Shown in pieces: positions 50,617 through 56,406 of a stretch of DNA of 64,000 nt. Positions within the stretch are counted from its first letter, which is position 1. The number at the start of each line of letters is the position of its first letter. The stretch comes from Lentzea fradiae (lineage in GTDB: Bacteria; Actinomycetota; Actinomycetes; Mycobacteriales; Pseudonocardiaceae): positions 310,001-374,000 of the forward strand of contig NZ_FNCC01000001.1 of NCBI RefSeq assembly GCF_900100955.1, in the 5' to 3' direction. The position numbers and the translations under genes are program-made. Under the pieces are notes generated by a model, which saw nothing but the letters and a program-made list of their open reading frames with translations, searched no databases and had not been told where the DNA came from.

Positions 50617-51138
50617 CTACAGAGCGTTCAGGGTGGCGAGGTAGGTCTCTCGCGTCTTGTCGATACAGCCGCCCAGCTCGACCACCGTCGCGTTCGTCCC
50701 GGCCGAGAGCGCGGAGCGGGCGACGGTGCGTGCTTCCTCGAACTGGTTGCGCAGCAACGACTTCAGGTGGTCGTCGGGGTCGGGCGCGTGCTCGGCGGCG
50801 GCCAGCTCGGCCGCTGTGACCATGCCGGGCATGTCATGACCGTCGTGCTGGTCCGACTCCGGCCTGCCCGCCCGCGTGAGCACCTCCCTGACCCGCGCCA
50901 GCTCGGCCCGGTAGGCGGGGGCGACCTGGTCGGCCAGCGGGCGCAGCGCGGAACCGGGTCTCACCAGGGCGAGCGCGGCGAGCGCCGTCTCGTTCTGGGG
51001 GATCACCAGGTCCAGGAACGCCAGGTCGGTGGCCGACAGCTCAGGTGCGGGAGAAACAGGGTGTGGCGCAACGGGTGCAGGGGCCGCTGCGCCACACCCC
51101 GCCGCCGCCAGGACGGCGGCGACGACCAGTGCCCGCAC
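50617..51138 (-). CDS. DUF305 lipoprotein
   Basis: 173 aa. A lipobox LAAAGC near residue 16 makes it a membrane-anchored lipoprotein. The DUF305 part has FLDLVIPQNETALAAL, in which the usual metal-ligand histidines are largely absent (a typical motif is H-x2-A-x2-M), and a HDGHDMPGM segment later that has retained two His and a Met. GTG 51138 shares a base with the upstream DUF1996 stop (TAGTG), so it is translationally coupled to it. It is the last gene of the sigma-GH128 operon. Confidence 0.72.
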   Translation of the reverse strand: MRALVVAAVLAAAGCGAAAPAPVAPHPVSPAPELSATDLAFLDLVIPQNETALAALALVRPGSALRPLADQVAPAYRAELARVREVLTRAGRPESDQHDGHDMPGMVTAAELAAAEHAPDPDDHLKSLLRNQFEEARTVARSALSAGTNATVVELGGCIDKTRETYLATLNAL

Positions 51139-52196
51139 TACGGACGGCCGTCGGGTCCGCACTTGACGATCCGGTTGATGCAGTCGCGCACCCGCAGCGC
51201 CATGTCCTCCTCGGGCCAGGCGTTGAAGAAGTCGCCGTGCATCGTGAAGCCGGGGCCGGACGCGAGCTTGATCCGCGCCGGGTCACCCGTCACCGGGTAG
51301 CGCAGCACCTGGCGCAGCTTCGGCACGGGCACCGGGTGCGTCGACGGGCACTCGTTCGCGACCGGGTAGGCCATGTGGCTCTTGTGGTCGGCCGAGTCGA
51401 GGTCCTTGCCGTTCCAGCACTGCGGGAAGTCCAGGTAGGACTCGAGCATCGAGCCCTCCGGGCAGTTCACGAAGTCCTTGGACGGCTCGACGTGCCCGGC
51501 GTGCAGGCAGGACCAGCGGGACTGGGTGCTGCCGTCGGGCGCGGTGGCCTTGGCGTTGCCCGCGACGATCCGCAGCCCGTGCGGGAGCGGCTGGATGCGC
51601 GCGGTCACGTCGTCACGCACGCCTTCACCGAGGTAGTAGAACGTCGTGCCGGTCGGCTCGACCGGTTGGCCGTCGACGAGCAGCGTGGGCACCCAGTAGG
51701 ACGAGAGGTCCTTCTTGGGGTTGCACGAGGTCTCGGCCTTGTCGAGGTCCTCGACGGTGGTGTGGGCGTTCGTGGAGACGTTGCCGAAGAAGCTGTGCAT
51801 GTGCGATGCGCCGGGCAGGTTCGGCAGGACGATCGGGTCGTCCGGCAGCCGGTGCGTGAACGGGCACTCCGCGACGAACTCGGCGACGCGCACGGCGTTC
51901 GCCGGGATCGGCTCCTGCGCGGGCAGGTTGAGAGCGGCCTTGGGTGCGTCCTGGGCGGTCGTCGCGCCGGACGTGCCCTCCGCCGGAGCGGTGGCGGGAG
52001 GAGCGGCCTGCTGCTGGTGCTGCTGTTCCGGCGTGGAGGCAGGGGGCGTGGTCGACGAGGTCGCCGCGGGCGGGTTCTTGGGGGGAGTGAAGAACATCGC
52101 GTTCGCGGTCACCGCGGACGCCGCAACACCCGCCACGGCGAGGGCGGCGATCAACACGCGCCTCCGCATCCGGGACGGAATCGGGGCGTGGGCCAT
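51138..52196 (-). CDS. DUF1996 secreted protein
   Basis: 352 aa with a signal/anchor helix (about 12-33), a Pro/Gln/Thr-rich linker (about 38-100) and a DUF1996 domain (about 100-350). Conserved features include AECPFTHRLPDDPI, SHMHSFFGN and SRWSCLHAGHVEP and four or more Cys, plausible disulfides. DUF1996 is known in fungal and bacterial secreted proteins, often beside carbohydrate-binding WSC modules. It is 65 nt downstream of the sigma-GH128 gene and shares its strand. Confidence 0.88.
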   Translation of the reverse strand: MAHAPIPSRMRRRVLIAALAVAGVAASAVTANAMFFTPPKNPPAATSSTTPPASTPEQQHQQQAAPPATAPAEGTSGATTAQDAPKAALNLPAQEPIPANAVRVAEFVAECPFTHRLPDDPIVLPNLPGASHMHSFFGNVSTNAHTTVEDLDKAETSCNPKKDLSSYWVPTLLVDGQPVEPTGTTFYYLGEGVRDDVTARIQPLPHGLRIVAGNAKATAPDGSTQSRWSCLHAGHVEPSKDFVNCPEGSMLESYLDFPQCWNGKDLDSADHKSHMAYPVANECPSTHPVPVPKLRQVLRYPVTGDPARIKLASGPGFTMHGDFFNAWPEEDMALRVRDCINRIVKCGPDGRP

Positions 52197-52261
52197 CGAA
52201 TGATCCTTTCGAGCAGGGAGAACTTGAACAGGGACGGTGGCGGTTCAAGGGCGGCGCGGGA

Positions 52262-54097
52262 TCAGCCCGCGTCGCGGTAGGCCAGGCCGGCCTGGTTGGG
52301 GGTGCCGCCGGGGGCGTAGAGACCGGTGCCCGGTTTGTCGGCGGGCAGCGCGAACCACGCGTAGCGCTCGACGTAGGGGAGGCTCTCCATCATGGCGGCG
52401 GAGCCGCGGGCGAAGGCCGCCTGCTGCTCGGGAGACGGGTAGCGGGGTGACCCGCCGGAGAAGTCGATGAGGGCGTACTCGGTGAGCCACAACGGTTTGC
52501 CGTACCGCTTGTGCACGGCTTCCAGGTAGTTCCTCAGGTGTCCGACGGCGGCGTCGCCGAAGTCGGAGCCGTACCAGTGCACCGCGATGAAGTCGACGCG
52601 CAGACCTCGTTGCGCCGCACCGGACATGAACCGGTCGAGCCAGCCGCCCGGCTTGTCGCCGCTGTGCGCGACGGCCGGGCTGCCGAGCCGCAGCCCGGTG
52701 GCGGCGAGCTTCGGCCAGAGGTCGAGCGCCTGCTCCGGCGACATGTCGGCCTGGTCGGGGAAGTCGGGCTCGTTGAACCCGAGCAGCACCTTGCCGTTGG
52801 CCTTCGCGCGGGCGATCGTGGCGTCGTCGGTGAACTTCGTGCCCCAGATCATCGGCACGAACTCGACGTTCGGCGGCGTGGCGACACCGTCGGGGTGCAC
52901 GGCCCAGTTGTAGTACCAGCCCGCGCGGACGTCGGTGAGCGCTTTGCCGACGCCGTCGAAGTTCCAGGTGCTGACGCCCTTCTTGGCCGCGACCGTCACC
53001 GGCGTGACTGGCGGAGGAGGAGGCGGCGCCGCGACGGACGTCGACGACGGGACCGTGGTGGTGGTCGTGACCGGCACGGACGAGGACGCGACGGTGGTGA
53101 CCGGCGGCGTGCGTCCGGTCGCGACCGCGATCGTGTTCGCGACCGGCTGCTCCTCGCGGGACGGCACCACGGCGACGACGATGCCCGCGGCCACCACCGC
53201 GGCCGCCGCGGCGGCGACGGGTTTGACGAACGCGCCCTTGAGCAGCAGCCCGATCTTGCCGGTGGTGACCGGGTCTCCGGCGGCGTGCGAGAGGACGGCG
53301 TGCGCCCCGGCCGGGGCGGACGGGTCGAACGCGAACGCCGCGGGCAGCGGCACCAGCGGCAGCCGGGCGATGAGGCCCTCGACCGCCGCGAGGTCGGTGC
53401 CGCAGCGCTCGCAGCGCGCGCAGTCCCGGGCGTGCCGGGCGATCCGCTTGCGCCACAACGGACTCGGGTCACCGTCCCAGTCGGCCACGACCTCGGCCAG
53501 GTCGGGGCAGCGGGGCGTGCGTTCGAGCGTGCGCACGACGATCCGCGCGGAGTCGAGCTGCGCCTTGACCCGTTGCACCCGCACAGCGGTGTGCTGCGGC
53601 GTCAGGTCGAGCGCGTTGGCGACCTCAGCGCGGGTGAGCCGCCCGGCCGCCTCCAGCCACCACAGCGACAGCAGCTCGCGCTCGTCCGCGCTGAGCCACC
53701 GCGTCGCCGCCACGACCTCGCGTCGCTGCCCGGACAGCTGCAGCCGCATGATGGTGAGGTCGACGAAGTCCGCGCCGGGGTCGGCGATGTCCTCGACCAT
53801 CGGACCGGTGACCGGCACCCGCTCGCGTTCGCGGTGCCGCAGCCGGATCTGGTTCATCGCGATGACGACGAGCCACGACCGGAACCCCGCGGGGTCGCGC
53901 AGCGACGACAGCCCGTGCACCGCGCGCAGCATCGTCTCCTGGACGACGTCGTCGGTGTCCTCGTGACCGCCGAGCGCGTGCCCCACGATGTTGTAGACGA
54001 GCGGCAGGTACCCGCTCACCAGGTCGTCCAGCGCACGCTGGTCGCCGTCGCGTGCGGCTTCCACCGTCGCGACGCCGGGCTCCCGCGCTGCCGTCAT
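52262..54097 (-). CDS. ECF sigma factor fused to a zinc finger, membrane helix and GH128-like glycosidase
   Basis: 611 aa. Residues 12-90 are sigma region 2 (DDVVQETMLRAVHG, GFRSWLVVIAMNQIR) and 135-185 region 4 (LSADERELLSLWWLEA then TRAEVANALDLTPQ). A H-x3-C-x2-C zinc finger (His222, Cys226, Cys229) typical of anti-sigma domains follows, then one helix (291-311), a Val/Thr/Ser/Pro linker (315-370) and a TIM-barrel glycosidase (374-611) with GFNEPD (Glu443) and WLTEYAL (Glu540), as in Asl1/GH128 beta-1,3-glucanases. The single helix puts sigma inside and enzyme outside. ATG 54097 has GAGG upstream. The gene heads an operon with DUF1996 and DUF305 and diverges from GH76. ECF groups with long membrane extensions are known; a glycosidase end is notable. 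Confidence 0.85.
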   Translation of the reverse strand: MTAAREPGVATVEAARDGDQRALDDLVSGYLPLVYNIVGHALGGHEDTDDVVQETMLRAVHGLSSLRDPAGFRSWLVVIAMNQIRLRHRERERVPVTGPMVEDIADPGADFVDLTIMRLQLSGQRREVVAATRWLSADERELLSLWWLEAAGRLTRAEVANALDLTPQHTAVRVQRVKAQLDSARIVVRTLERTPRCPDLAEVVADWDGDPSPLWRKRIARHARDCARCERCGTDLAAVEGLIARLPLVPLPAAFAFDPSAPAGAHAVLSHAAGDPVTTGKIGLLLKGAFVKPVAAAAAAVVAAGIVVAVVPSREEQPVANTIAVATGRTPPVTTVASSSVPVTTTTTVPSSTSVAAPPPPPPVTPVTVAAKKGVSTWNFDGVGKALTDVRAGWYYNWAVHPDGVATPPNVEFVPMIWGTKFTDDATIARAKANGKVLLGFNEPDFPDQADMSPEQALDLWPKLAATGLRLGSPAVAHSGDKPGGWLDRFMSGAAQRGLRVDFIAVHWYGSDFGDAAVGHLRNYLEAVHKRYGKPLWLTEYALIDFSGGSPRYPSPEQQAAFARGSAAMMESLPYVERYAWFALPADKPGTGLYAPGGTPNQAGLAYRDAG

Positions 54098-54381
54098 GCT
54101 CACCTCACTTGCCGGTCCAGGACTCTCTCTGAACAGGAGATGTCCGGGCTTCACGGCGATAACGAAAAATTCTCGGCGACTTGGGCCGAGCGTCTCAACT
54201 GGCCTGTCGAGGGGGCGTGTCACCGGCCCGCCGCGACGGCGGAAGTAGACCACGAGGCCGTGTGAGATCCGGGTAGGGACGCGGGAATTTCTGTCCGGGA
54301 CATGAACGCGCCAGCCCGTTGACCTGGAGCTGCCCGGGTCACGACCATGAGAGCGTTCCCACGAACGCGGGGGTGGTCGGC
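54098..54381. other. 284-nt divergent promoter region between sigma-GH128 and GH76
   Basis: No gene is visible. It includes a mildly AT-rich island (ATAACGAAAAATTC near 54160) and GGGAATTT near 54286, and must hold both promoters. I cannot assign an ECF-type -35/-10 pair with confidence. Confidence 0.5.
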
Positions 54382-56406
54382 GTGCTGAACCTTCTCGTGG
54401 CCCTTCTGGTGGCGCTCGCGCTCGCACCCGGCAGCAGCCCTTCGTGGACGCCGCCTGTTGAGACGGTTTCGGCCGGCGGTGCGCCGGACGGCGTAGCGGC
54501 CGGGGACGCGTGGGGTGGGGCGGCGGAGACGGAGGCCGCACCGCTTGGCGCCGCGCCGCCTTCCGGCCCGCCGAGCAGCACCGCACTACCAGCCGCCCAG
54601 CCCGACTCACCGCAGCCCACCGCACCACCTCTAGCCGCCCCGCCCGGCACGCCGCAGCCCACCACTCCACCTCTCGCCGCCACCGAGCTCGTCTGCGTCC
54701 TGCACTGCGACACCCGCGACCCGTCCCGGGCGGCCCAGGAGACGTTCCCCGTGCCGGAACGGCAGGTCAACGGCCGCCGCCTGGTCCTGCACGTCTCCGA
54801 CCGCGACGGGATGGCGTGGGGCAGCATCGACAACGGCGTCACGGGCGACTCGGTGTGGCTGGACCGGTCGTGGGACGGCGGTGCGAGCTGGGAGGGGTTG
54901 CTGGACCGGGCGAGCGTCCCGGCCTCGTGGACCGGTACCCGCACGCTGATGTACAACGTCACCGACCCGGTCCACCACCGGCGCGGCCTGATCCGCGCGT
55001 GCGGGGACGCGGCGGCGGTGACGTGCACGGACTGGATCTACCCCGCGGTGTGCGACGTCCTGTGCGACGGGGCGGGTGCCACGCAGGCCAACGGTGACGC
55101 GCAACCCGTTCCGCCGGCGACGTTGTCCGGTCGCACCATCCGGCTGCACACCGACCTGAACGGCATGGCGTGGGGCACGGTCGAGGCGGGCGGGCCCGGT
55201 GACGAGGTCTGGCTCGACCGGTCCTGGGACGGCGGGGCGAGCTGGCCGGGCGGGTCGTCGCTGGGGCGGACGTCGACGCCTGCCGGTGCGACGGGCACGG
55301 GCACCACGTTGTTCGCCACCCGCGACCCGCGTGGCCGGCACTTCGGTGGTGCCGTGCGCGCGTGCGGGCGGGAGGCGGCGCACCAGGAAGGCAGCTGCAC
55401 GGCGTGGGCGCGGCCGGTGCCGGGCCGGGTGCGGGCGGCGGCGGACGCGTTGATGTACGACTACGACCCGTCTGCCGCCTGGTGGCCGACGAGCTGGTGG
55501 AACTCGGCGACGACGCTCACGGCGCTGCTGGACTCGGGAATCCGGGAGTACGACTGGGTGGTCGCGCGGACGTTCGACGTCAACCGCGGCACGTTCGCGG
55601 CGGGAGAGCGCGGCACCGACCCGGTCGAGGGGAACTTCATCAGCCGTTCGATCGACGACAGCGCCTGGTGGGGGCTGGCGTGGGTGGCCGCGTACGACCG
55701 CACGGGCGACCGGCGCTACCTGGCGATGGCGACCACCATCGCGTCGTACGTGCACCAGTACTGGGACACCCGCACGTGCGGCGGTGGTGTTTGGTGGGAC
55801 CGCGAGCGCACGTACAAGAACGCCGTGACGAACGGCCAGTACGTCAGGCTGACCGCGTCGATCCACCGCCGGACGCCCGGCGACACCCTGTGGCTGCGGC
55901 GCGCCCGGACCGCCGCTGACTGGTACCTGGCCAGCGGCATGGTCAACTCGGCGAACCTGGTCAACGACGGGCTGAACGGCTCCTGCCGCAACAACGGCGG
56001 CACGGTCTGGTCCTACAACCAGGGCCTCGCCATCGGCGGGTTCACCGAGGTGTGGCGGGCGACGCGGGACAGCCGGTACCTCGACGCCGCGCGACGGCTC
56101 GCGGACGCCGCGATCACGAGCCCGGTCTTGACGCGCGACGGCGTGCTCACCGAGTCGTGCGACCTGTCCGCGTCCTGCGACGACAACCAGAAGCAGTTCA
56201 AGGGCGTCTTCATGCGCTACCTGAACGACCTCGCGCGGGCCACCGGGGCCGGCGCCTACCAGCAGTACGCGCGCCGCCAGTCCGACTCGGTGTGGACGGC
56301 GGGGCGGGACGCGCTGAACCGGATCGGGCAGCGCTGGGCCGGTGGCGCGCCGAACCAGGTGGACTGGCGCACGCAGGCGAGCGGGCTCGACGCCGTCGTC
56401 TCCTGA
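54382..56406 (+). CDS. Secreted GH76 alpha-1,6-mannanase with duplicated N-terminal modules
   Basis: 674 aa. A hydrophobic signal (about 1-18), a long Ala/Pro/Thr-rich linker (20-100), two copies of an about 90-residue module sharing WLDRSWDGGASW and a Cys pair, then a GH76 alpha/alpha barrel (about 350-670). The catalytic Asp pair in SIDDSAWWG is residues 425-426. GH76 enzymes cut alpha-1,6-mannan of fungal walls or mycobacterial lipomannan. It diverges from the sigma-GH128 gene, whose sigma part may control it. The GTG start is uncertain; GTG 54373 is an in-frame alternative. Confidence 0.85.
   Translation: MLNLLVALLVALALAPGSSPSWTPPVETVSAGGAPDGVAAGDAWGGAAETEAAPLGAAPPSGPPSSTALPAAQPDSPQPTAPPLAAPPGTPQPTTPPLAATELVCVLHCDTRDPSRAAQETFPVPERQVNGRRLVLHVSDRDGMAWGSIDNGVTGDSVWLDRSWDGGASWEGLLDRASVPASWTGTRTLMYNVTDPVHHRRGLIRACGDAAAVTCTDWIYPAVCDVLCDGAGATQANGDAQPVPPATLSGRTIRLHTDLNGMAWGTVEAGGPGDEVWLDRSWDGGASWPGGSSLGRTSTPAGATGTGTTLFATRDPRGRHFGGAVRACGREAAHQEGSCTAWARPVPGRVRAAADALMYDYDPSAAWWPTSWWNSATTLTALLDSGIREYDWVVARTFDVNRGTFAAGERGTDPVEGNFISRSIDDSAWWGLAWVAAYDRTGDRRYLAMATTIASYVHQYWDTRTCGGGVWWDRERTYKNAVTNGQYVRLTASIHRRTPGDTLWLRRARTAADWYLASGMVNSANLVNDGLNGSCRNNGGTVWSYNQGLAIGGFTEVWRATRDSRYLDAARRLADAAITSPVLTRDGVLTESCDLSASCDDNQKQFKGVFMRYLNDLARATGAGAYQQYARRQSDSVWTAGRDALNRIGQRWAGGAPNQVDWRTQASGLDAVVS

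Follow-up and report, generated by a model that had tools for sequence, protein, structure and literature searches.

A fused sigma-GH128 protein of Lentzea fradiae as a putative one-protein sensor with a very small predicted regulon that leaves out the neighbouring GH76 enzyme

A 64-kb stretch of Lentzea fradiae DNA (NZ_FNCC01000001.1), called the window here and used for all coordinates, carries a gene for an extracytoplasmic function (ECF) sigma factor fused to a glycoside hydrolase domain, sigma-GH128, which is followed by the genes of a DUF1996 protein and a DUF305 lipoprotein and is flanked on its other side by a divergent gene for a GH76 enzyme. On the basis of sequence comparison we consider it quite probable that sigma-GH128 is a one-protein sensor that controls its own gene and DUF1996-DUF305, and that GH76 is separate from this control. 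The evidence comes mainly from a conserved promoter, which we compared in 24 genomes of the Lentzea group (L. fradiae included), with Umezawaea added separately. The sigma-GH128 gene was found in 14 of the 24. On aligning the 14 upstream regions with that of Umezawaea, one conserved island was obtained, TTTYY-GTTAT-N16-CATCTCC-TGGTC, about 40 nucleotides 5′ of the start codon, and the same island is present 5′ of DUF1996 in all 9 genomes where DUF1996 is not linked to sigma-GH128. The motif is identical at 12 of 12 positions, the corresponding values being 66% for the spacer and 45-48% for the upstream flank. We then have the genome-wide search of the 24 genomes for TTTYY-GTTAT-N16-CATCTCC (up to 3 mismatches, with the reversed motif as control). 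The strict search gave exactly 23 matches, which are the promoters of all 14 sigma-GH128 genes and of all 9 unlinked DUF1996-DUF305 operons, with none elsewhere in the 24 genomes (including the ten that lack sigma-GH128) and none for the reversed control. With a looser pattern there were 25 matches, the same 23 and two more (control 2); these two (G020 and G023:C19), one of them in a genome without sigma-GH128, were judged to be chance matches and rejected as targets. The region 54136-54168 may therefore hold the −35 and −10 elements that sigma-GH128 itself would read, pointing to autoregulation.

The same class of promoter is found beyond the Lentzea group. In other genera GTTAT-N16/17-CGTCTCC precedes sigma-GH128 in 12 of 12 genomes, and six additional matches were obtained, of which one, in Actinoplanes sp. 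M2I2, lies before a DUF1996 gene and two lie before GH16 genes. The latter two are similar GH16-lectin genes, one in Actinoplanes palleronii and the other in A. siamensis, and the nearest solved relatives of their proteins are beta-1,3-glucanases and laminarinases; the presence of the motif class before GH16 beta-1,3-glucanases fits glucan sensing. Two loci, one upstream of an adenosine deaminase gene (L206) and the other inside a gene (L201), were rejected as chance matches. It may be noted that the sigma promoter class also stands before a SARP gene of Actinoplanes sp. M2I2 (L211). A pattern search of 120 genomes of the family returned only sigma-GH128 promoters, the known Lentzea matches and matches that were either in-gene or unassigned.

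The gene order in the relatives is consistent with a three-gene unit. The 14 genomes with sigma-GH128 are also those that have an orthologue of DUF1996 (77-81% identity), which adjoins sigma-GH128 in five and is located elsewhere in nine, and DUF305 follows it in 13 of the 14, including all nine unlinked cases. The three genes are together in 4 of the 14 genomes, that of L. fradiae being one; the fifth linked genome has sigma-GH128 and DUF1996 with DUF305 not detected, and Umezawaea has all three in order. The nine unlinked genomes group as a single clade in the marker tree, with the linked genomes falling outside it. Since Umezawaea is also linked, the linkage of sigma-GH128 and DUF1996 is probably ancestral and was probably lost in a single event. 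The preliminary description had proposed the three genes as an operon from their spacing, and the promoter, being found also where the genes are unlinked, backs them as a unit well past adjacency; of the two checks that it named, conserved linkage of the four genes and a shared promoter motif, the first holds for these three in part of the genomes and the second throughout, and neither extends to GH76.

Several observations weigh against this reading. As the nine unlinked operons belong to one clade, they probably go back to one split, in which a copy of the sigma leader was taken along, and the promoter evidence is thus one of retention under divergence and not of nine independent gains. The identical distribution of sigma-GH128 and DUF1996 adds little, as some one or two losses of the linked operon would account for it; striking as this co-occurrence is at first sight, we do not count it as strong evidence, since the marker tree reduces it to very few events. 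Also, the strict search could miss weak targets. Outside Lentzea and Umezawaea just one DUF1996 gene has the motif, and none of 30 DUF1996 loci in 14 other-genus genomes has a motif of its own, one of these loci being the copy that follows the sigma gene in Umezawaea; DUF1996 in general was therefore rejected as a target.

The protein itself has the parts of a membrane-bound sensor. Region 2 of the ECF sigma factor lies at residues 26-93 (PF04542), and the TIGR02937 sigma70-ECF model matches residues 22-182 above its cutoff (E=1.7e-20), both regions 2 and 4 being present. Around residues 222-229 is the sequence HARDCARC, an H-x3-C-x2-C zinc motif of the type typical of anti-sigma domains, for which the Pfam search gave no separate zinc-finger match. 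This is followed by a single transmembrane helix at about residues 290-312 (hydropathy peak 2.53 at 293-312), a Thr/Ser/Pro linker up to about residue 365, and the GH128 domain (Glyco_hydro_cc, the Pfam family of GH128), a subgroup I-like beta-1,3-glucanase by homology, which at residues 369-611 aligns with the solved GH128 structure 6UAQ (E=5e-92). In 30 of 30 sigma-GH128 proteins from many actinobacterial genera the catalytic E443 (FNEPD) and E540 (LTEYA) are invariant and the zinc motif is kept, which suggests a working enzyme and a functional anti-sigma domain.

Related fusions were also encountered. Most Lentzea genomes have a paralogous protein (L003, G000:C17:137930-139000) with the sigma part, zinc motif, transmembrane helix and linker that ends in a CAP domain, as do its relatives in Streptomyces and Phytomonospora (L070 and L111), the sigma part being combined with exchanged outer domains. 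The sigma-CAP genes of Lentzea have a promoter that parallels that of sigma-GH128 and differs from it in sequence, TTTCTGTGACC...CGGTCTCC, as would be expected if each fused sigma factor reads its own. A sigma factor 59% identical to that of the window has a different C-terminal domain (L022, G011:C244:5228-6268) and is preceded by the same promoter class as sigma-GH128, GTTATC-N15-CGTCTCCT, and in Antribacter soli (L090:3513-5843) the sigma factor carries a fused outer region of approximately 500 residues without a Pfam match.

In the circuit that we propose, the zinc-binding anti-sigma domain of the protein would hold the sigma factor in an inactive state on the inner side of the membrane, and the extracellular GH128 domain would engage beta-1,3-glucan. 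Binding or cleavage of the ligand would lead to release of the sigma factor, by proteolysis or by a change of conformation, and the released sigma factor would transcribe from GTTAT-N16-CATCTCC, amplifying its own gene by positive feedback and inducing DUF1996 and DUF305. The predicted targets in the Lentzea group are two transcription units only, sigma-GH128 and DUF1996-DUF305, the latter being in the same operon as the sigma gene in L. fradiae and in an operon of its own with a copy of the promoter in nine relatives. GH76 would be a separately regulated neighbour brought in through rearrangement. The match of sigma factor and promoter, the identity of the ligand, the mode of release and the roles of DUF1996 and DUF305 are all putative. 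The features of the locus are collected in Table 1. The four open reading frames were placed correctly by the preliminary description, as seen from their positions and Pfam matches, and so were the gap of 65 nucleotides between sigma-GH128 and DUF1996 and the divergent gap of 284 nucleotides; the one-base overlap of DUF1996 and DUF305 (TAGTG) is correct with the GTG at 51138 taken as the start of DUF305, an alternative GTG being at 51162.

Table 1. Features of the sigma-GH128 locus in window coordinates.
Feature	Position	Strand	Basis
DUF305 lipoprotein, third operon gene	50617..51162	−	Pfam DUF305 E=1.3e-7; lipobox
DUF1996 protein, second operon gene, predicted regulon member	51138..52196	−	Pfam DUF1996 E=3.2e-49
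sigma-GH128	52262..54097	−	Pfam Sigma70_r2 E=6.7e-13 and Glyco_hydro_cc E=9e-52
Putative sigma-GH128 promoter, conserved	54136..54168	−	TTTTC-GTTAT (GTTAT 54163-54159) -N16- CATCTCC (54142-54136)
Putative rearrangement breakpoint stretch	54183..54290		Between the last conserved DNA on the sigma side and the first on the GH76 side
Conserved upstream elements of GH76	54292..54361	+	Palindrome, TTGACC, CebR-like operator
GH76 enzyme, divergent neighbour, judged outside the regulon	54382..56406	+	Pfam GH76 E=1.7e-38

DUF1996 is a large family without known function that is common to fungi and actinobacteria, and up to 11 copies were seen in one actinobacterial genome. In the protein of the window PF09362 covers the whole domain (profile positions 1-237 of 237), five histidines are invariant (His132, His134, His271, His274 and His320) with the HxH and C-terminal His signatures present, and export or membrane anchoring through the N-terminus is predicted. 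The DUF305 lipoprotein scores 32.3 bits against a gathering cutoff of 27 for PF03713 and has a conserved H-x-GHDMPGM besides its lipobox. These residues make metal binding by both proteins plausible. In fungi, DUF1996 proteins have been tied to stress and metal responses (PMC4738358). The AlphaFold model of DUF1996 has a predicted local distance difference test score (pLDDT) of 81, with 221 residues at 90 or above. No sequence relative of DUF1996 was found in PDB and no Foldseek match to the model at E≤0.001, and VIA-align gave one row with a Z of 2.1; the missing structural match does not make DUF1996 a new fold, and no function is drawn from the model. As a tentative extension, which we regard as possible and rather unlikely, an active beta-1,3-glucanase would act as the sensor and its single output besides the sigma factor itself would be a secreted DUF1996 protein, a probable metal binder, together with the metal-motif DUF305 lipoprotein. 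The predicted regulon now ties DUF1996 to a putative beta-1,3-glucan sensor. Should the role of DUF1996 be to act on, or to defend against, the glucan that is sensed or the organism that makes it, a large family of fungi and actinobacteria would gain a function.

The preliminary description had gone further and joined all four genes in a possible detection-and-attack module, in which sigma-GH128 would also switch on GH76 so that detection of beta-1,3-glucan triggers an attack on alpha-1,6-mannan. The GH76 protein matches PF03663, and its IDDSAWW aligns with the DD region of CtGH76, an Asp-Asp motif described in PMC12295086. The closest solved structure to its catalytic domain is CtGH76 of a mixed fungal and bacterial subfamily, which is thought to degrade alpha-1,6-mannan or glycosylphosphatidylinositol-core glycans (PMC12295086). 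The duplication of N-terminal modules described earlier is confirmed, the two copies being 47% identical over 124 aligned columns. The four-gene module is favoured by the adjacency across the divergent gap of 284 nucleotides, and by the fact that the 6 of 24 genomes with a GH76 orthologue are all among the 14 with sigma-GH128. Against it, GH76 adjoins sigma-GH128 in L. fradiae only; the distance is approximately 40 kb in one relative and 49 kb in another, and in the other three GH76 is on a different contig. The sigma promoter was found before none of the 6 orthologues. In the alignment with a relative (G010) in which GH76 is far away, conserved DNA on the sigma side reaches 54182 and the wider region is scrambled; the GH76 upstream block is conserved among the orthologues from about 54290. 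The adjacency is therefore most readily explained by a rearrangement in the L. fradiae lineage alone. At the place of GH76, several relatives (L038, L039 and L041, upstream of 10001) have a SARP/AfsR-like gene that diverges approximately 245 nucleotides from sigma-GH128. Also, GH76 has conserved upstream elements of its own, namely the palindrome TGTCCGGGACA (54292-54302), TTGACC (54319-54324) and a CebR-like operator TGAGAGCGTTCCCA (54348-54361). TTGACC and TGAGAGCGTTCCCA are common to the six orthologues (TTCTCA in one), and a TGTCCwGGACA-like palindrome is present in 5 of the 6. The CebR operator is TGGGAGCGCTCCCA (PMC5332605), to which TGAGAGCGTTCCCA matches at 12 of 14 positions; it is the sole such site in the window, with 0.004 expected in the divergent gap. 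With this operator and no sigma promoter, a LacI-family repressor would be a likelier controller of GH76 than sigma-GH128. GH76 was therefore rejected as a regulon member and we regard the four-gene module as very unlikely; the case shows how rearrangement can bring about a divergent pair of genes that looks meaningful and yet has no shared control.

For the promoter two other explanations have to be weighed. It might be read by another sigma factor or regulator with sigma-GH128 as merely one of the targets, since the binding of sigma-GH128 is a prediction and Lentzea genomes hold other ECF sigma factors; but the ten genomes without sigma-GH128 have no strict match and only one likely chance match to the looser pattern, the promoter class goes with sigma-GH128 in all the other-genus genomes mentioned above, and the sigma-CAP paralogue is preceded by a diverged promoter of its own, leaving this unlikely to our judgement. 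The copy before the unlinked DUF1996 might instead be a functionless leftover of the operon split, as the leader 3′ of the −10 element resembles the sigma leader in several genomes, having probably been copied, and as the nine genomes are one clade. Yet in these nine the 12 motif positions are invariant against 66% in the spacer and 48% in the upstream flank, which indicates selection on the unlinked promoter, and we give the leftover very little credence. The question of the ligand is closer. With sigma-GH128 controlling itself and DUF1996-DUF305 as proposed, the glucan could still be non-fungal (plant callose, algal laminarin, bacterial curdlan or a self polymer) and GH128 mainly a binding domain, in the manner of the RsgI6 GH10 domain, whose activity is very low and which is regarded as a binding module (PMC4711584). 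The two catalytic glutamates kept in all the proteins favour an active enzyme and have no bearing on the source of the glucan. As for the fungal wall glucan suggested earlier, its beta-1,3-glucan part is supported indirectly by the GH16 enzymes with the same promoter class in two Actinoplanes, and nothing in the analysis ties the ligand to fungi; a non-fungal ligand with GH128 mainly as a binding domain is a serious contender, to which we assign somewhat less than an even chance.

On comparing with known systems, sigma-GH128 resembles ECF52 (SCO4117 of Streptomyces coelicolor), which also has an N-terminal ECF sigma factor, a zinc finger, a membrane helix, a Pro-rich linker and an extracellular carbohydrate domain, and for which autoregulation is proposed (PMC5826349; PMC8999054). 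However, SCO4117 ends in a carbohydrate-binding module instead of a catalytic domain and is pleiotropic with its motif in 29 promoters, whereas sigma-GH128 has two predicted units and another promoter sequence. The sigma regions, zinc motif, membrane helix and Pro/Thr-rich linker of sigma-GH128 are those of the ECF52/ECF53 type, and ECF53, actinobacterial ECF sigma factors with a fused zinc-finger and transmembrane extension, is most likely its home, as placed by domain likeness. According to a review, glycosyl hydrolase domains are predicted in some members of ECF52/ECF53, and none of the glycosidase-bearing members is experimentally validated; in the parts of it consulted, no DUF1996 or DUF305 targets of the kind predicted here are mentioned (PMC10766802). 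In Clostridium thermocellum SigI/RsgI6 an extracellular glycoside hydrolase likewise senses polysaccharide for a membrane anti-sigma factor, with autoregulation (PMC4711584), but these are two proteins, SigI is not an ECF factor, the regulon is of cellulosome enzymes and the GH10 domain is nearly inactive. IutY of Pseudomonas putida (ECF243) has the sigma factor and membrane anti-sigma factor in one chain, and differs in serving Gram-negative iron-siderophore cell-surface signalling and in having no glycosidase domain; release of the sigma factor by regulated proteolysis is shown for IutY and proposed for ECF52/53 (PMC8999054). Literature joining sigma factors with GH128 in such a system was not found, judged by title, nor was a link to sigma-GH128 in the literature on DUF1996, judged by title or abstract. 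The sensor is therefore of a known kind, while the promoter as defined here, a regulon of such small size and the finding that GH76 lies outside it appear new as far as the literature was searched, with the promoter and the very small target list being predicted precisely enough for direct testing.

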